From Gemmatimonadota bacterium (GTDB taxonomy: Bacteria; Gemmatimonadota; Gemmatimonadetes; Gemmatimonadales; GWC2-71-9), in the NCBI GenBank assembly GCA_022710485.1, contig JAKLGU010000001.1, forward strand, positions 1 to 64,000: a DNA stretch of 64,000 nucleotides, given 5' to 3'. Of the stretch, positions 29,329 through 37,706 are shown piece by piece. The position numbers and the translations under genes were made by a program. The first letter of the stretch is position 1, and each line of letters starts with the position of its first letter. Under the pieces are notes generated by a model that was given only the letters and a program-made list of their open reading frames with translations, had not been told where the DNA came from and ran no database searches.

Positions 29329-29359
29329 CCGCCCTCCCGGAAGTGGGCGGTTTTCGTTG
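29329..29359 (+). promoter_or_regulatory. Expression-platform hairpin covering the btuF ribosome binding site
   Basis: CCGCCC (29329-29334) pairs with GGGCGG (29345-29350) around a 10-base loop, followed by TTTT (29351-29354). The TTG start of btuF is at 29357. The 3' arm is the only purine-rich stretch near the start, so this hairpin could both hide the ribosome binding site and act as a weak terminator. Confidence 0.6.
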
Positions 29360-30253
29360 GTCCTCACTCGGCGTTCCGCGTGGTTGCTCCTCACCGTCCT
29401 CCTCGGGGCGGTCGGCTGCGTCGGTCGGGAGTCGACCCCGGGCGCGCCGGCCATCATGGCCGTGGACGACCTCGGCGACACCCTCCGGCTCGCCACCCGG
29501 GCCACGCGCATCGTCTCGCTCATCCCCGCCACCACGGAACTGCTCTTCGCGCTCGGACTCGGCGACCGGGTGGTCGGCCGGACGACCTGGTGCGACTACC
29601 CAGCCGCCGCTCGCGCGGTCCCCAGCCTCGGCGACGGCCTGCAGCCGAATCTCGAGGCCATCGTTGCGGCACAGCCGGACCTCGTGGTCCTCTACAACTC
29701 AGTGCAGAACGTCGCCGCGGCGGATCGGTTGCGGGCCCAGCACATCCCGACCGTGCTGGTCACCACGGACCGCCTCGCTGACGTCCCGCGGCTGGCCCGG
29801 CTCCTGGCCCCCCTCGGTGGGCGGGCCGAAGCGGGCGACAGCCTTGCCCGGTGGTTCGAAGCGGCGCTGGACAGCGCCACCGCCACTGGGGGGGGGCACA
29901 CGCGCAACGTGCTTGTCCTCGCGTGGGACCAGCCGCCGATCGTGATCGGGGCGGGCAGCTTCCTCAGTGAACTGGTCGAACGCGCCGGGGGGCGAAACGT
30001 CTTTCACGACCTGGCGGCCGCTTCGGCACCGGTGAGCCTGGAGGCGATCGCGAGCCGCGACGTCGACGTCGTGCTGGTGCTCGGCGACACCATGCCTGCC
30101 TTCGCGCGGCGCGCGGAGTGGATGTCGGTGCCCGCCGTACGCGAGCATCGGTTCGTCTACGTGCCCTCCGCCCTGTTCAGCCGGCCCGGTCCGCGGAGCC
30201 CGGAGGCGCTGCGGGTCCTCTCGGCCGCCCTCCGCGCAGGGCCGCTGCCGTGA
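29357..30253 (+). CDS. btuF: Vitamin B12 ABC transporter substrate-binding lipoprotein
   Basis: Binds cobalamin in the periplasm and delivers it to BtuCD. The 298-residue protein begins at TTG 29357 and has a lipobox LLGAVGC with Cys21, so it is lipid-anchored, unlike soluble E. coli BtuF. The class III binding-protein fold is clear: RIVSLIPATTELLFALGLGDRVVGRT then CDYP, AAQPDLVVLY and the FHDLAAASAPVSLEAIASRD region. The riboswitch directly upstream fixes the substrate as a cobalamin or corrinoid. It overlaps btuC by GTGA. Confidence 0.93.
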   Translation: MVLTRRSAWLLLTVLLGAVGCVGRESTPGAPAIMAVDDLGDTLRLATRATRIVSLIPATTELLFALGLGDRVVGRTTWCDYPAAARAVPSLGDGLQPNLEAIVAAQPDLVVLYNSVQNVAAADRLRAQHIPTVLVTTDRLADVPRLARLLAPLGGRAEAGDSLARWFEAALDSATATGGGHTRNVLVLAWDQPPIVIGAGSFLSELVERAGGRNVFHDLAAASAPVSLEAIASRDVDVVLVLGDTMPAFARRAEWMSVPAVREHRFVYVPSALFSRPGPRSPEALRVLSAALRAGPLP

Positions 30254-31224
30254 CGACGCGCCAGTGGGGGGCGCTCCTGGCAGGGACGATCCTCGCCCTG
30301 ATTGCCGGTGTGTCGGTCGGCGCCGTGGACATCGATTGGCGCGGCGTCGCCGGTGCCCTGTCCGCGGCGCCGACTGGCGAGGCGGCGCTGGTGCGCTACC
30401 TCCGCATGCCAAGGGTCGTGCTGGCCTTCCTGGTGGGCGGGGCGCTCTCGGTCGCCGGCGCCTCCCTGCAGGCCCTGGTGCGGAATCCCCTCGCCGACCC
30501 CTACCTCGTCGGGCTGTCCGGCGGCGCGGGGCTTGGCGCCGTGCTCGCGATCGCCCTCCATCTCGGCGGGCCCTGGGCCGTGCCGCTTGCCGCTTTTGCT
30601 GGCGCGCTGGGCGCCGTGGCCGTCGTCTACCGGCTGAGCGTCGTCGCGGGGCGGCGGCTCGACCCCCATATCCTCTTGCTCGGCGGCGTCGTGGTCGGGG
30701 CGTTCGCCGGTTCCCTCATGAGCGCGGTGATCACGCTGGCGTCCGCCTCCGAGTTGCGGAGCGCGATGCTCTGGCTCCTCGGCGGGTTCGGGATGGCCTC
30801 CTGGCCGGCGGTCGCGGTCTTCGCCTCCTACGCGCTGGTGCCGCTCGGACTGCTGGTCGGAAGCGCCCGCGGCCTGGACCTGCTGACCCTCGGGGAGGAG
30901 AACGCCCAGTATCTCGGCGCCGACGTGGAGGCGCTCAAGCGACGCGTCTATCTCTCCGTGGCCGCGCTGACCGGCGCCGCCGTGGCGGTCTCTGGGATCA
31001 TCGGATTCGTGGGACTCGTCGTGCCGCACGTGATGCGCCGCTGGGGCGTCCCGCTGCACCGGCAGCTCCTTCCCGCCGCCTTCCTGGCGGGTGGTGCGTT
31101 CCTGGTGCTCTCCGACCTCATCGCGCGCAGCCTGTTCCGTCCGCTCGAACTCCCCGTCGGCGTGGTCACCGCGCTGATCGGCGTGCCGATCTTTGCCCTG
31201 CAGCTGCGGAAGTCGCTCCGATGA
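30250..31224 (+). CDS. btuC: Vitamin B12 ABC transporter permease
   Basis: FecCD-family membrane subunit, 324 residues with about ten hydrophobic helices. Family marks are RMPRVVLAFLVGGALSVAGA, QALVRNPLADPYLVGLSGGA and the C-terminal GIIGFVGLVVPHVMR motif at the ATPase interface. It is translated from GTG 30250 inside the btuF stop and overlaps btuD (ATGA). The substrate is assigned from the operon and riboswitch. Confidence 0.93.
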   Translation: MTTRQWGALLAGTILALIAGVSVGAVDIDWRGVAGALSAAPTGEAALVRYLRMPRVVLAFLVGGALSVAGASLQALVRNPLADPYLVGLSGGAGLGAVLAIALHLGGPWAVPLAAFAGALGAVAVVYRLSVVAGRRLDPHILLLGGVVVGAFAGSLMSAVITLASASELRSAMLWLLGGFGMASWPAVAVFASYALVPLGLLVGSARGLDLLTLGEENAQYLGADVEALKRRVYLSVAALTGAAVAVSGIIGFVGLVVPHVMRRWGVPLHRQLLPAAFLAGGAFLVLSDLIARSLFRPLELPVGVVTALIGVPIFALQLRKSLR

Positions 31225-32015
31225 TCCTCAGGGGGGAAGGGCTCACCGTCCGCTATCCCGGCGCGGCGCTCCCCGCGTTGCAGGGCGTCGATTGCGCAGT
31301 AGCCCCGGGGCACCTGCTCGCGGTCGTCGGGCCAAACGGGAGCGGGAAGTCCACGCTCCTGCGCGCGCTCCTGGGGCTGGCGGCCCTGGAGGCCGGCTCC
31401 GTGTCGCTGAAGGGACGGCCGTTCGGGGGCTGGCGCCGGCCCGAGGTCGCCGCCCTGGTGGGCGTGGTGAGCCAGCGCGAGGATATCCTCTTCTCGCTGA
31501 GCGTGGAGGAGACGGTCCTGATGGCGCGGTACGCGCGGCTCGGCCCGCTCGCGCCGGCGCGGATGGAGGATCGCGCCGCGGTCCGTCGCGCCCTCGAGAG
31601 GTGCGACGCCTGGTCGCTGTGCGAGCGCCGGACGGACACGCTCTCCGGCGGGGAGTGGCAGCGGGTGCGCGTGGCGCGCGCACTGGCTCAGGAACCTGAG
31701 GCGCTCCTCCTCGACGAGCCGACGGTGGCGCTCGACGTCCGGCACGAGATGGAGGTGTTCGAGCTGGTGCGGGCGCTGACGGACGGTGGCCTGGGGGCGC
31801 TGGTCATCACCCACCACCTGAACCTCGCGGCCCGCTACGCCGACTCGCTGCTCCTGCTCGACGAGGGGCGGGTGGTGGCTCACGGGACGCCCGGCGAGGT
31901 CTTGCGGGAGCCGGTACTCTCGTCCGTGTTCCGGTGGCCGGTGGCGGTCACGCCATGGCGGGATGGGTCCCCGCAACTGGTTCCGCTGCGCCCGGGGGAA
32001 GGGCAGGCCGGGTGA
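31221..32015 (+). CDS. btuD: Vitamin B12 ABC transporter ATPase
   Basis: ATP-hydrolysing subunit that drives B12 import with BtuC. The 264-residue protein has Walker A GPNGSGKST, Q-loop VVSQRED, signature TLSGGEWQRVRVARALAQEP, Walker B ALLLDEPT and the switch His in VITHHLN. The order fits the FepC/BtuD family. It overlaps btuC upstream (ATGA) and the receptor gene downstream (GTGA). Confidence 0.93.
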   Translation: MILRGEGLTVRYPGAALPALQGVDCAVAPGHLLAVVGPNGSGKSTLLRALLGLAALEAGSVSLKGRPFGGWRRPEVAALVGVVSQREDILFSLSVEETVLMARYARLGPLAPARMEDRAAVRRALERCDAWSLCERRTDTLSGGEWQRVRVARALAQEPEALLLDEPTVALDVRHEMEVFELVRALTDGGLGALVITHHLNLAARYADSLLLLDEGRVVAHGTPGEVLREPVLSSVFRWPVAVTPWRDGSPQLVPLRPGEGQAG

Positions 32016-34057
32016 GGGGGGGGCTTCGTGCGGCATGCGCCTCGGCACTGTTGCCGATGACGCTCGCCGCGCAGGCGCCGGTCACCGTCCGCGGAAGGGT
32101 GGTCGACGCCGCGAACGGAACGCCCGTCGCTGCCGCCCGCGTGGACCTCGGGGCGCTCTCGGCGCAGTCTGGGCCCGACGGCAGGTTCGTCCTCGGGGGC
32201 GCGTCCGCCGGCACCGCGGTCATGGTGGTCGCCGCCGTCGGTTACCGCTCGCGTCGCGTGCGGCTCGAACTCCTGCCGGGTCTGGACGCCGAGGCGACGG
32301 TGCGACTGGAAGCGATGGCGGTGACGCTGCCCGATCTCGAGGTCCAGGCGGCGGGCGGGCAGCCGATGACGCTCGATGGCGCCGCGCTGGTCCGGCGCGG
32401 TTCCGACCTCGCCACGGCGATCGACGGCTGGCAGGGGATCGTCGTCAGGCGGAGCGGTGGTAACGGGGCCGCCTCGCCCCAGGTGCGCGGCAGCGCTCCG
32501 GAGGAAGTGCTCGTGCTGGTGGACGGCTTCTCCATCAACGACCCCCTGACGGGCCGGGCGGACCTGAGCAAGCTCGCCACGCGGGATGTGGCTTCGGTGC
32601 AAGTCCGGCCCGGGGCGCAGTCGGCCGGTGGGGCGGGTGTGGCGGTTGGCGGAGTCCTCGACATCCGGAGCCAGGCCGCTGGCAGACCAGAGGCCTCCGG
32701 CTGGGTGGGGAGCTACGGCAGCGCGGGTGCCTCCCTGTCGGGGATGCTGCTGGACACCCGAGTGTTCCTGAGGGGCGAGCTGCTCCCTGATGACTACCCG
32801 TACAGCGTTCCCGTCAACCGGGGTGGTGGGGAGGCGCGCCGGGTCAATGCGGGCGGCGGGCTCGGTTCGCTTTCGTTCCGACACGCGGGTCGCTTCGACG
32901 TGCAGGGGCGGGCGAGCGTTTCGCGGCGCGGCCTGCCCGGGTCGGTCGGCAACGAAACGCCATACGCCGAGGCGGAGGACGGGGCGGGGTTCGTCGGAGT
33001 GACGATCGGCGGCGCATCGACCTGGAGTGCGTCGCTTCAGTACCTCCAGAGTACAGTGCGGGACTCGGCCCCGCCGAGCGGGCCGGCGTACGAAGCGCGC
33101 TCGGCGGGATGGAGCGGGACGATCGATTGGTCTCATTCGAGGCCGGTTGCCGTGGTGGGGTGGGCAGGCAGCGTCGCGCTGGGGGCTTCCGCGCGGCACG
33201 ACCGGTTCGGGGGAGACGTGGTGCAGGATGGCTCGCAATTCTCGCGGGCCGGGCTGCGGGGAACGGCAACGCTCCGCCCGGGCGGCCAGTCTCCATGGAC
33301 GCTCACGCCGTCGCTGCGCCTCGACATCTGGACCGGCGAGAACCTGCCGCTCGGGAGCGCCCGGCTCGACGCCGGATGGCAGCACGGCGCGACCTCGGTG
33401 CAAGCCTCCGTCGGGAGCGCGGTCTCCGCCCCACCGCTCGCGGACTTATTCTTTCGGGAGGGGGTCGGGGTTGCGCTGAATCCCGGGCTCAGGCCGGAGC
33501 GTGTGCGGTGGGAGGTCGAACTGGGCGTGAACCAGGACTGGTCGCTCTTCGGGGCTCCCGGCAGCGCCTCGCTCCGCGGCTACTATGGGCGCGTCGATGA
33601 CATGATTCTCTGGGCCCCCGGGGTCGGGTTCATCTGGAGCCCGCACAATTTTGACGTGACTCGCCGAGGGGTGGAGGCGGCGGCGAGCATCCACCCGGTG
33701 CCCACGGTCTCGCTGGCCGTGCAGGGGGCCTGGACCCCGATCACCTATGATGTTCCCGATGGCGCCCAGGTGCAGTATCGTCCGCGAGGGACCTGGGGGG
33801 CGTCGGTCGGGTGGGCCGACGGTGCATGGGGCGCCGATGCCCGGTGGCGTTGGGTCGGCGAGCGGTACCCGAACCCCGGCGGCGTGAACCCACGACCATC
33901 CTTCGGACTCGTGGACGTCGGGGCGGAGCGGGCTCTCGGCGCGGCCGTGGTGCGGGCCGACGTCCGTGACTTGCTGGACACGCGCGCCGAATTCCTGGCC
34001 GGCTACCCCACACCGGGGCGCACGCTGGTCGTATCTATCTCCTTGGAGTGGCAATGA
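32012..34057 (+). CDS. TonB-dependent outer-membrane receptor, probably for cobalamin
   Basis: Energy-coupled outer-membrane importer, 681 residues. After a signal peptide (ASALLPMTLAAQA) comes a carboxypeptidase-regulatory-like domain (VTVRGRVVDAANGTPVAAAR). A plug domain follows (LATAIDGWQGIVVRRSGGNG, VRGSAPEEVLVLVDGFSIND) and then a beta barrel to a terminal aromatic strand ending in SLEWQ. Position inside a riboswitch-controlled B12 locus makes it a BtuB equivalent. The N-terminal added domain is unlike E. coli BtuB but common in TonB receptors of Bacteroidota-like groups. The start is GTG 32012. Confidence 0.88.
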   Translation: MRGGLRAACASALLPMTLAAQAPVTVRGRVVDAANGTPVAAARVDLGALSAQSGPDGRFVLGGASAGTAVMVVAAVGYRSRRVRLELLPGLDAEATVRLEAMAVTLPDLEVQAAGGQPMTLDGAALVRRGSDLATAIDGWQGIVVRRSGGNGAASPQVRGSAPEEVLVLVDGFSINDPLTGRADLSKLATRDVASVQVRPGAQSAGGAGVAVGGVLDIRSQAAGRPEASGWVGSYGSAGASLSGMLLDTRVFLRGELLPDDYPYSVPVNRGGGEARRVNAGGGLGSLSFRHAGRFDVQGRASVSRRGLPGSVGNETPYAEAEDGAGFVGVTIGGASTWSASLQYLQSTVRDSAPPSGPAYEARSAGWSGTIDWSHSRPVAVVGWAGSVALGASARHDRFGGDVVQDGSQFSRAGLRGTATLRPGGQSPWTLTPSLRLDIWTGENLPLGSARLDAGWQHGATSVQASVGSAVSAPPLADLFFREGVGVALNPGLRPERVRWEVELGVNQDWSLFGAPGSASLRGYYGRVDDMILWAPGVGFIWSPHNFDVTRRGVEAAASIHPVPTVSLAVQGAWTPITYDVPDGAQVQYRPRGTWGASVGWADGAWGADARWRWVGERYPNPGGVNPRPSFGLVDVGAERALGAAVVRADVRDLLDTRAEFLAGYPTPGRTLVVSISLEWQ

Positions 34058-35103
34058 TGGTATCCACACGTCCGCGCCGTGCCCTCGTCGGGTGCCTGGC
34101 CGCCCTGGTTTCCGCGTGCGCCGATCCCGAGGCGCCGCTTCCGGCGCCCTCCGAGGTGGTGCTCGTCGTCAACTCGATCGAATATTCGCTGAGCGTTGTG
34201 CCTGTGGGCGCCACCGGCTCGACCTACAAGATCCCGCTCGGCGGCACGACGCCGACGCCAGTCGGGGTCTCCGCCCTCGGCGCCTACGCGGTCGTGCCGA
34301 TGGGGCTCGACCACGCCGCGACCGTCGTGGACCTCTCCACCGGCTCGGTCGCGCGGGTCGTCCCGCTGGCTGCCGGTTCGTTCGCCACCGGATCGGCCAT
34401 TGTCAGCGATTCGATTGCCTACGTGGCGAATCCGGGCCTCAACACCGTCACCCGGATCAACTACCTGACCGGCGATACGGCGAGCGTGGCCGTGGGCGTG
34501 TATCCGCAGGGAGTGGTCGCCACACGAGGGAAAGTCTTCGTCCTGAACGGGAACCTGGTCAACTACGCGCCTGCCGGCCCAGGCTGGATCACCGTCATCG
34601 ATCCGGTCACCAACGCGAAGGCTGTCGGGATCGATTCCATCCCGTTGCCGCTTCCCGGCAATCCGCAGTTCGCCGTGGTCGGCGGAGACGGACGCATCTA
34701 CGTCATGAACGTCGGCAACTACGTGGACGATGGCCGCCTCTCCATTGTGGATCCGGTGGCGCGCGTGGAACTCGCCAACTTCGGCGGGTTCGGGCCCGGT
34801 CCCGGCAACCTGGCCACCGACGGCGGCGACCGCCTCTTCATCAGCTCGTTCACCGAGGGGCTGATGGAGTTCGACATTGCGACCCGAACCGTGGTCCTCG
34901 GGGCTGGGGACGGGCTGCCCATCCCCGATAACTCAGGCGTCGCGGTGGATTCCGAGGGGCGCATCTACGCCATTTCCGCTGGTTGCGGGGGCGGGGCCGA
35001 TGGAGTGGCGCACGTGCTTCGGCCCGATCTCACGGAGCGGTCGGTCGTGGCCCTCGGCAGCTGCGCCATCGGAACGGCCGTCACCAGCATTCCCGCCGAG
35101 TAG
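34054..35103 (+). CDS. Beta-propeller lipoprotein, candidate BtuG-like cobalamin-binding protein
   Basis: A 349-residue secreted protein with a lipobox LVSAC (Cys22) and at least five or six YncE/NHL-like blades. Blade marks include ATVVDLSTGSVARVVPL, NTVTRINYLTGDTASVAVG, GWITVIDPVTNAKAVGI, GRLSIVDPVARVELANF and SGVAVDSEGRIYAIS. The ATG at 34054 has GGAG five bases upstream and overlaps the receptor stop. In Bacteroides, BtuG is a surface beta-propeller lipoprotein that captures B12 for BtuB. Here the location after a B12 receptor and the same architecture suggest the same job, but the binding residues cannot be checked by eye. Confidence 0.72.
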   Translation: MMVSTRPRRALVGCLAALVSACADPEAPLPAPSEVVLVVNSIEYSLSVVPVGATGSTYKIPLGGTTPTPVGVSALGAYAVVPMGLDHAATVVDLSTGSVARVVPLAAGSFATGSAIVSDSIAYVANPGLNTVTRINYLTGDTASVAVGVYPQGVVATRGKVFVLNGNLVNYAPAGPGWITVIDPVTNAKAVGIDSIPLPLPGNPQFAVVGGDGRIYVMNVGNYVDDGRLSIVDPVARVELANFGGFGPGPGNLATDGGDRLFISSFTEGLMEFDIATRTVVLGAGDGLPIPDNSGVAVDSEGRIYAISAGCGGGADGVAHVLRPDLTERSVVALGSCAIGTAVTSIPAE

Positions 35104-35112
35104 ATTGCGGGG

Positions 35113-35874
35113 ATGGCCGCCATCACCACGCCGTCCATCATCCTGGGCGCGCTTCGCTACGGCGACACCTCCAAGATCGTTCGCCTCGCCACCCGGGACC
35201 TCGGCATCCGCAGCGCCCTCGCCAAGGGGGCGCTGCGGCCGCGGAGCCGGTTCGGCGCCTCACTGCAGCTCCTCAGCGAGGGCGTGGCCCACCTGTACCT
35301 CAAGGACACCCGAGATCTCCAGACCCTCGCCGCCTTCGACCTGACGAACCTGCGGGCCGGGCTGGCAGGGGACCTGCCGCGCTTTGCCGCCGCCGCCGCG
35401 CTGGGTGAGGTCGCGTGGCGGTTCTCTCCCGCGGAGCCACATCCCGACAGCTTCGACCTGCTCAGTGGCGCGCTCAACGTCCTCGAGTCCGCCCCGCTGG
35501 AGGCCGTCGAGGTTCTCGGCCTCCGGATGCTCTGGCGCCTGGTAAGCGTGCTCGGGTTCGCTCCTGCGCTCGACCGCTGCGCCCGCGACGGCGCGCCCCT
35601 GCCGCCCGACGAGCCGCTCCGCTTCAGTGCGGCCGAGGGAGGAGGACTCTGCAGGAGGTGCGGAGAAGGGCAGGGAGTCACGACACTCTCGCCCGCCGAC
35701 CGGAACGACCTGGAGGCGCTCGTCCGCGCCGATGCGGAACTCCCGATCCTCGACGAGCGCCACGCGGCATCGCACCGGCGGCTCTTCGCGCGATTCCTCC
35801 GCCATCACCTGGCGGAGGGAGCGGACCTCCCCGCCATCGCGTTCTGGGAAGACCGGCCCTGGGTCGCCGCGTGA
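35113..35874 (+). CDS. recO: DNA repair protein RecO
   Basis: Recombination mediator that, with RecR, loads RecA at gaps. The 253-residue protein has the N-terminal OB fold (TPSIILGALRYGDTSKIVRLATRDLG), a helical middle and a C-terminal zinc-like element: DRCARDG and GGLCRRCGEG near residues 155-190. The first half of the zinc site has a single cysteine (usually CxxC), so metal binding may be partial. It lies 9 bases after the B12 locus and overlaps selB (GTGA). Confidence 0.88.
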   Translation: MAAITTPSIILGALRYGDTSKIVRLATRDLGIRSALAKGALRPRSRFGASLQLLSEGVAHLYLKDTRDLQTLAAFDLTNLRAGLAGDLPRFAAAAALGEVAWRFSPAEPHPDSFDLLSGALNVLESAPLEAVEVLGLRMLWRLVSVLGFAPALDRCARDGAPLPPDEPLRFSAAEGGGLCRRCGEGQGVTTLSPADRNDLEALVRADAELPILDERHAASHRRLFARFLRHHLAEGADLPAIAFWEDRPWVAA

Positions 35875-37706
35875 TCATCGGGATGGCAGGGCACATCGAC
35901 CACGGGAAGTCCACGCTCGTCGAGGCGCTTACCGCCAAGAGGATGGATCGCCTTGCCGAGGAGCGGGCCAGGGGCATCACGATCGACCTGAACTTCGCCC
36001 CGCTCCGGCTGGCGGATGGGGAGATCGCCGGAGTGGTGGACGTGCCGGGCCATGAGGACTTCGTTCGCACGATGGTGGCGGGCGCGGCTGGCGTGGACCT
36101 CGTGCTGCTGGTCATCGCCGCGGACGAGGGGATCAAGCCCCAGACGCGGGAGCACCTGGCCATCGTGGAAGCGCTCGGTGTCCCGCGCGGTGTGGCGGTG
36201 CTCACCAAGTGCGATCGGGTGGACGCCGACCGGGTGGCGTTGGCGCAGGGGGAAGTGCAGGACTGGCTCAAGAACTCCCCGGTCGCGTTTGTCGGGGCGC
36301 TTCCCGTGTCGGCGCGCACCGGTGCGGGGCTCGGGGACCTGCTGGATACGGTGCAACGCGAGGCCGCCGAGCTCCGTCCGCGCGACGAATCGGCCCCCTT
36401 CCGGATGCCGATCGATCGGGCCTTCTCCCTTCCGGGCGCCGGCACCATCGTGACGGGAAGTGTCTGGAGCGGCTCCGCCGGGCCGGGGGATGCTCTTCGG
36501 CTCCTTCCCGCGGGTCGATCGGTACGGGTACGTGCCGTCGAGGTGCACGGCACGCGGAGCGATTGCGCCCGGCCCGGGAACCGCGCGGCGCTGGGACTGT
36601 TCAACGTCGAGCGGGACCAGGTCGGCCGCGGCGACGTCCTCGTGGACGCCGCGCTCCCATGGGAGCCCACCACCGCGCTCGATGTGAGGCTTCAGCTTCT
36701 CCAGACTGCTCCGCGCCCGCTCACCTCCCGCACCTCCGTCCACCTTCACCTCGGCACCACGGAAGTGGTGGCAAGGGTCCTCCCACGCGCGCCCATCCCA
36801 CCCGGCGGAGTCGGGCTCGCCCGGCTGATCTGTGAAGCACCAGTTGTCGCGCGCGGCGGTGACCGGTTCGTGATCCGGAGCTACAGCCCGGTGTCCACCA
36901 TCGGCGGCGGGGTGGTGCTCGACCCGACTCCTCCTCGCCGTCGGGCGCTCTGGCCCGGGACCCTCGGCTCCTCCAACTCGATTGAACGGCTCGGGGCCCT
37001 CCTGGAGCGGCATCCCGCGGGTGCCTCCTCCGCCTCGCTCGCCTTCCGTTCGGGGCTCGCGACGTCTGACGTGGAGGGACTGCTCGCGGGCGAGGCTCGG
37101 GTTCGCCTCCTCCCCGGCGGGTGGGTCATGACGGCCGTCGTGGACGAGGCTCGGCGGAGCGCGCTCGAGGCGCTGTCATCGTTTCATGGCAGCCGGCCGG
37201 CCCAGCCCGGCATGCCGGTCGAGACGCTGCGGCGTGGCATCCACCGCTCGGCACCCGTGGCGGAGGCGGCGGTGGCTGACCTCGCCGCGGGGGGAGCGAT
37301 TACCATCGAGGCCGGTCTGGCCAGGCTGGCCGGCTTCGAGGCCCGTATCGCCGGCGGGCCGGCGGCGGTCGACCGGGTAGTGGCGGCGGTGCGGACGTCG
37401 GGCTTCGCGGCACCCCCGGTTCGGGAGCTCGAACGGCAGTTCGAGCAGGTGGATGTGATGGGAGCGCTCCGGTTGGCGGCGGGGGCCGGGCAGGTCGAGG
37501 CGGTGACGCCGGACTGGTATTTGGCCCGGGAGGTCCTGGATGGGTTCCGGGCGACCCTGCAGGCGGAGGGGCGGGCGGGCCAGATCACCGTGACGGGGGT
37601 CAGGAACCGAACCGGCCTGTCGAGAAAGTACTTGATTCCCCTTTTGGAATGGGCCGACCGCAGGGGAATCACGCGCCGAGAGGGCGATGCGCGGCGGCTC
37701 ACTTGA
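35871..37706 (+). CDS. selB: Selenocysteine-specific elongation factor SelB
   Basis: GTPase that delivers selenocysteyl-tRNA to the ribosome at UGA codons with a SECIS element. The 611-residue protein has G1 GHIDHGKST, G2 RGITID, G3 DVPGHEDF, G4 TKCD and G5 SART, then EF-Tu-like domains 2 and 3 (GAGTIVTGSVWSG), and C-terminal winged helices that bind SECIS RNA (GQITVTGVRNRTGLSRKYLIPLLEW). The start is GTG 35871. No selA, selD, tRNA-Sec or obvious selenoprotein gene is in the window. Confidence 0.93.
   Translation: MIIGMAGHIDHGKSTLVEALTAKRMDRLAEERARGITIDLNFAPLRLADGEIAGVVDVPGHEDFVRTMVAGAAGVDLVLLVIAADEGIKPQTREHLAIVEALGVPRGVAVLTKCDRVDADRVALAQGEVQDWLKNSPVAFVGALPVSARTGAGLGDLLDTVQREAAELRPRDESAPFRMPIDRAFSLPGAGTIVTGSVWSGSAGPGDALRLLPAGRSVRVRAVEVHGTRSDCARPGNRAALGLFNVERDQVGRGDVLVDAALPWEPTTALDVRLQLLQTAPRPLTSRTSVHLHLGTTEVVARVLPRAPIPPGGVGLARLICEAPVVARGGDRFVIRSYSPVSTIGGGVVLDPTPPRRRALWPGTLGSSNSIERLGALLERHPAGASSASLAFRSGLATSDVEGLLAGEARVRLLPGGWVMTAVVDEARRSALEALSSFHGSRPAQPGMPVETLRRGIHRSAPVAEAAVADLAAGGAITIEAGLARLAGFEARIAGGPAAVDRVVAAVRTSGFAAPPVRELERQFEQVDVMGALRLAAGAGQVEAVTPDWYLAREVLDGFRATLQAEGRAGQITVTGVRNRTGLSRKYLIPLLEWADRRGITRREGDARRLT

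Follow-up and report, generated by a model that had tools for sequence, protein, structure and literature searches.

Systems close to the locus examined here have been described from Escherichia coli and from Bacteroides. In the E. coli BtuBFCD system, vitamin B12 is imported without a propeller lipoprotein. In Bacteroides thetaiotaomicron, BtuG (BtuG1/2/3; 3DSM, 8BMX, 8OKV, 8BLW, 8PTD) is an acidic seven-bladed propeller with an N-terminal lipid anchor, and its gene adjoins that of a BtuB-type receptor at a locus with a cobalamin riboswitch. BtuG has been reported only from Bacteroidetes (PMC6143338), and in the BtuBG structural paper its B12-binding face was reported to be acidic and lipoprotein-capped TonB transporters were called seemingly exclusive to Bacteroidetes (PMC10404256). 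A further system is XusB (DUF4374) of Bacteroides, a seven-bladed propeller lipoprotein that caps the TonB-dependent receptor XusA and binds iron-siderophores (PMC13142918). A survey of Gemmatimonadota mentions btuB and tonB and no propeller or lipoprotein (PMC10581226), and our literature search, with subscription papers and preprints outside its scope, found no paper pairing BtuG with Gemmatimonadota.

We examined a locus on the plus strand of the window, meaning the whole 64,000-nucleotide stretch of Gemmatimonadota DNA that was analysed. The locus opens with a cobalamin riboswitch aptamer (RF00174; 29135..29244; cmscan 75.2 bits, E 1e-16), which was the sole RF00174 match reported in the source 2.53-Mb assembly. 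It is followed by btuF (29357..30253), which encodes a corrinoid substrate-binding protein with a lipoprotein-type signal (Peripla_BP_2 4.6e-36; NCBIfam BtuF model 1.4e-23, under its cut-off) and probably starts at TTG. The gene for the inner-membrane permease, btuC (30250..31224; FecCD 4.8e-83; NCBIfam BtuC models 4.8e-70 and 3.7e-64, both under their cut-offs), was assigned a GTG start because of its 4-base overlap with btuF, and btuD (31221..32015; ABC_tran 7.8e-30) encodes the ABC ATPase. Through these Pfam and NCBIfam matches, the three products fall into the B12/siderophore ABC uptake families. Next come a BtuB-type TonB-dependent receptor of what we call class A (32012..34057) and the BtuG-like seven-bladed propeller lipoprotein P0001 (34054..35103).

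The original prediction had placed the propeller gene downstream of btuFCD and a cobalamin riboswitch, with its ATG overlapping the receptor stop, and both statements hold. The "seven-part locus" that it described has six parts, namely the riboswitch, F, C, D, the receptor, and the propeller. Overlaps of 4 bases were found at btuF/btuC (GTGA, 30250), btuC/btuD (ATGA, 31221), btuD/receptor (GTGA, 32012), and receptor/propeller (ATGA, 34054-34057), and such a stop/start overlap at every gene junction suggests translational coupling. It was also noted that recO and selB lie directly 3' of the B12 operon (35113-37706), and that the order propeller or receptor, recO, selB is repeated in many genera of Gemmatimonadota.

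P0001 comprises 349 aa, has a signal peptide, and is encoded by a single-copy gene in the source genome. It had been described as a lipoprotein anchored at Cys22, and the lipobox LVSAC indeed ends at this residue, which is retained in at least 90% of 53 homologues. A second feature of the family is the pair Cys311/Cys337, conserved across most members and perhaps forming a disulfide, by which the family differs from BtuG. No Pfam or NCBIfam model was matched above its cut-off, and the Pfam search gave a weak PQQ_2/BamB match. Searches with the single sequence (PDB, Pfam, NCBIfam, plasmids) yielded nothing useful; phmmer with P0001 alone returned zero PDB chains, BtuG included, at E up to 10, which places P0001 outside the BtuG family as defined by single-sequence homology (BLASTP E below 1e-10). 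A profile built from the P0001 family was more informative, and its top PDB match was 1l0q, an archaeal S-layer YVTN propeller (3.5e-23), followed by the BtuG1 chains 8ptd/8ptf/8blw_B (1.9e-13 to 1.2e-12), with E. coli YncE at 2.4e-4.

The AF2 model of P0001, built with 38 homologues, is a seven-bladed propeller with a mean pLDDT of 92.4, in which the C-terminal strand closes the ring. The original prediction of five or more YncE-like blades was right about the propeller and short on the blade count; "YncE-like" can be kept as a description of fold only, because no Pfam or NCBIfam model was matched above cut-off. When the model was compared with the whole PDB, BtuG1/BtuG2/BtuG3 chains took ranks 1-5 and 7-17, that is, 16 of the 17 best matches (best E 1.8e-16; TM mostly 0.70-0.78), with PDB codes assigned to BtuB and BtuG through the data-availability section of PMC10404256 and the PDB titles. 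BtuG is thus the nearest fold to P0001 among all solved structures, as the structural comparison suggested for this protein had anticipated. Rank 6 was again 1l0q, and E. coli YncE, although it shares the YVTN/YncE repeat superfamily, was a much weaker match at rank 42 (TM 0.61). The BtuG match may reflect the general fold, since the best family-profile match is the YVTN propeller. Identity to BtuG in the structural alignment was 13-17%, and we have not filed P0001 as a BtuG family member because of this low identity, the missing single-sequence match to BtuG, and the generic YVTN propeller as nearest profile match. As a sequence-level signal, 13-17% identity would fit either descent from BtuG or a separate recruitment of a YVTN-type propeller.

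The receptor of the window contains a plug domain, an N-terminal CarboxypepD_reg domain, and a weak match to TIGR01779 (TonB-B12) under the model cut-off. Its AF2 model (pLDDT 83.6) had BtuB as all 18 of its best PDB matches, with BtuB3 of the BtuB3G3 complex at the top; identity to the Bacteroides BtuB1/BtuB3 receptors was low (16-18%). By structure and profile matches it is a TonB-dependent receptor nearest to the B12 receptors. Two main receptor classes were distinguished in the phylum, class A (alignment A5), which includes the window receptor, and class B (alignment A6). CarboxypepD_reg was present in 29 of the 29 class A receptors scanned compared with 0 of 23 in class B. The class A profile best matched BtuB1 of the Bacteroides BtuB1G1 complex (2.6e-50) and then E. 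coli BtuB (2.2e-44), whereas the class B profile matched E. coli BtuB at 2e-86 and BtuB1 at 6e-22. The locus shares its import route with E. coli BtuBFCD, which is well matched by the btuFCD genes and by receptors of class B, but E. coli lacks the propeller lipoprotein and its receptor class is unlike that of the window.

These receptor data bear on whether the propeller could be a BtuG-type lid that serves another chelate through the same receptor in place of B12. Siderophore propeller lids of TonB receptors do exist in Bacteroides, with XusB as the example (PMC13142918). However, the window receptor model matches BtuB ahead of any siderophore receptor, XusB was not among the 50 best PDB matches of the P0001 model, and DUF4374 was absent from P0001 and from the 20 families listed for its 53 homologues. 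Control by a cobalamin riboswitch and co-transcription with btuFCD also speak against a different ligand, and we regard this reading as very improbable.

The distribution of the propeller was assessed across Gemmatimonadota, where 125 of 395 genomes held a P0001 match with E no higher than 1e-3, of which about 100 were strong, and a profile search recovered further, more divergent copies in additional genera. When GTDB species genomes were scanned, 43 substantial relatives were recovered, and every one apart from L132 belongs to a Gemmatimonadota record. The locus had been proposed to lie outside Bacteroidota, and these relatives place it in Gemmatimonadota. The exception was a 3.2-kb MAG contig labelled Bacteroidetes with 83% identity to P0001, which was judged to be mislabelled or from a mixed bin, and two apparent relatives from other phyla (L174/L175; Firmicutes, Myxococcota) were set aside as matches at chance level. 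In this analysis the P0001 family was confined to Gemmatimonadota, in contrast to BtuG, which was published as exclusive to Bacteroidetes (PMC6143338).

We fetched 100 propeller loci, and in nearly all with enough flanking sequence the propeller gene immediately followed a TonB receptor and/or btuFCD. In the suggested search of other genomes, homologues occupied an equivalent position in about 100 genomes, far beyond chance, and the family is tied to B12 genes across the phylum. Cobalamin riboswitches were mapped genome-wide in 80 propeller-bearing genomes, which held about 1.3 each, and in 64 of the 80 the propeller lay 2.2-6.6 kb downstream of a riboswitch on the same strand, a spacing estimated to arise by chance in fewer than 1 case in 80. 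The other 16 genomes were mostly cases of contig ends, no detected riboswitch, or btuFCD-propeller loci with the receptor elsewhere. YVTN propellers are common and the single-sequence searches name no family, as would be expected if an unrelated YVTN or YncE-type propeller had come to sit in the operon by chance; to our knowledge, such propellers have no link to B12 uptake. The same position in about 100 genomes from many families of the phylum, and the clean absence of the propeller from the same syntenic locus in class B genomes without one, argue the opposite, and we rejected this chance origin on the linkage data, with a probability that we put close to nil.

Several variants of the locus were also observed. 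In some families, the receptor-propeller unit is divergent from btuFCD (L112, L115-L118, L122, L125-L127); where riboswitches were mapped (L112, L115, L117, L118, L122, L126), each of the two units has its own cobalamin riboswitch, and several of the divergent loci encode a propeller with an N-terminal Ig-like extension. Tandem propeller paralogues, two behind one receptor, were seen at L111:8956-11210 and L113:2060-4314. At four loci (L062, L066, L070, L074), the propeller is separated from a class B receptor by a distant second BtuF-like gene.

Pairing between the propeller and the receptor was found to depend on receptor class. The propeller lies immediately 3' of 58 of 60 class A receptors (Gemmatimonadota; receptors of 470 bits or more), and the remaining two are truncated where their contigs stop; in both genomes a propeller was located close to the end of a different contig. 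Two more partial class A matches, in genomes G160 and G158, comprise one contig-end fragment and one broken copy. It was noted that G158 (L106, L233), a single-contig MAG, has a truncated class A receptor more than 1 Mb from the propeller, which may be either a rearrangement or an assembly artefact. In a third, related receptor group, most members whose contig extends far enough are also followed by divergent propellers. Class B receptors were found both with and without a propeller, and 19 surveyed class B receptor loci had none. At L196-L214, in genomes without a detectable propeller, the syntenic order riboswitch-btuFCD-receptor-recO is kept with a receptor of another class.

This flexibility of class B suggests a second possibility, in which the propeller acts as a solo surface corrinoid-binding lipoprotein of BtuH-like type, with no fixed place as a lid, and delivers B12 to any B12 receptor present. 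Several genera keep the propeller beside btuFCD while a class B receptor is encoded elsewhere under a second riboswitch of its own, which means that the propeller does not strictly require a receptor next to it. The practically constant pairing of class A receptors with a propeller counts against this possibility, as does the strength of the propeller-receptor co-variation, which exceeds that with the other operon genes. Across pairwise distances from 30 loci, the propeller and receptor retained a partial r of 0.82 after BtuC, BtuD, and BtuF were removed (Mantel p 5e-4), and no positive partial correlation was found between the propeller and BtuC, BtuD, or BtuF at these loci. The partial correlation between BtuC and BtuF, an interacting pair in known systems, was 0.57 in the same set. 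The propeller-receptor signal would fit co-evolution of touching partners, and joint transfer of both genes would be expected to give an equal signal. We consider the solo lipoprotein unlikely, and prefer a lid that is paired with the class A receptor.

We also assessed the side of the outer membrane on which the lipoprotein might act. Top-face loops of the propeller showed higher conservation than bottom-face loops (p = 0.0008 in alignment A4; p = 0.027 in A1), with the two faces assigned by hand from strand order, and P0001 is acidic like BtuG (mature pI 4.35; family median 4.8). Acidic residues at positions +2 to +4 after the lipid Cys were present in 63 of 83 propellers compared with 15 of 52 BtuF proteins, a weak sequence trend. 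In Bacteroidota, acidic residues after the lipid Cys belong to a surface-export signal; we know of no such established rule for lipoproteins of Gemmatimonadota. The lipobox itself dictates membrane anchoring but says nothing of the side, BamB too is a lipoprotein with a propeller fold, and P0001 has its weak PQQ_2/BamB match, all of which would also suit an outer-membrane lipoprotein that faces the periplasm and either passes B12 on from the receptor to BtuF or aids receptor folding and assembly in the manner of BamB. BtuG, however, tops the structural ranking, BamB structures were missing from the 50 best PDB matches of the model, and the acidic +2 to +4 positions resemble the Bacteroidota export signal and are unlike those of BtuF. 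A periplasmic role thus appears distinctly improbable, and we tentatively favor placement on the cell surface.

Taken with the computed operon structure, lipobox, predicted fold, B12-gene linkage, receptor pairing, and co-variation, these results lead us to read the gene at 34054-35103 as encoding a BtuG-like surface corrinoid-capture lid for the class A BtuB-type receptor, with a probability of about 0.68. The original proposal of a functional equivalent of BtuG is supported, because two of the three conditions set to refute it came out in its favor: the fold is nearest to BtuG, and the family is tied to B12 genes across the phylum. Contact with the receptor, the subject of the third, has indirect backing in the near-obligate pairing and the co-variation. 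P0001 most likely works like BtuG, a reading in which B12 binding, surface exposure, and receptor contact are inferred. In the proposed mechanism, low intracellular B12 would lead the riboswitch to permit expression of the operon, and the lipoprotein, anchored in the outer membrane, would be exposed on the cell surface in contact with the receptor as its lid. A corrinoid would be captured on the top face, the more conserved side of the propeller, and then handed over to the receptor. TonB-derived energy would carry the corrinoid into the periplasm, where BtuF and BtuCD would take it inward.

A broader reading, towards which we lean only slightly, joins the locus with the distribution of receptor classes. 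Here, the propeller-capped B12 receptor would represent a second lineage of lid-and-barrel TonB transporters, one outside Bacteroidota, that either predates the split between Gemmatimonadota and Bacteroidota or evolved separately. Within the phylum, the same syntenic locus would have switched between a lid-dependent class A receptor, always paired with the propeller, and an E. coli-like class B receptor able to do without the lid. If the assignment is true, a phylum-wide equivalent in Gemmatimonadota would end the exclusivity of BtuG and of capped TonB transporters to Bacteroidetes. It would also provide a natural series of lidded and lidless receptors at one locus, by which the benefit of the lid to the cell would become testable. 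The main habitats of Gemmatimonadota are soil, sediment, and fresh water, and the propeller would be a further candidate for high-affinity scavenging of B12 in habitats in which this vitamin is traded.
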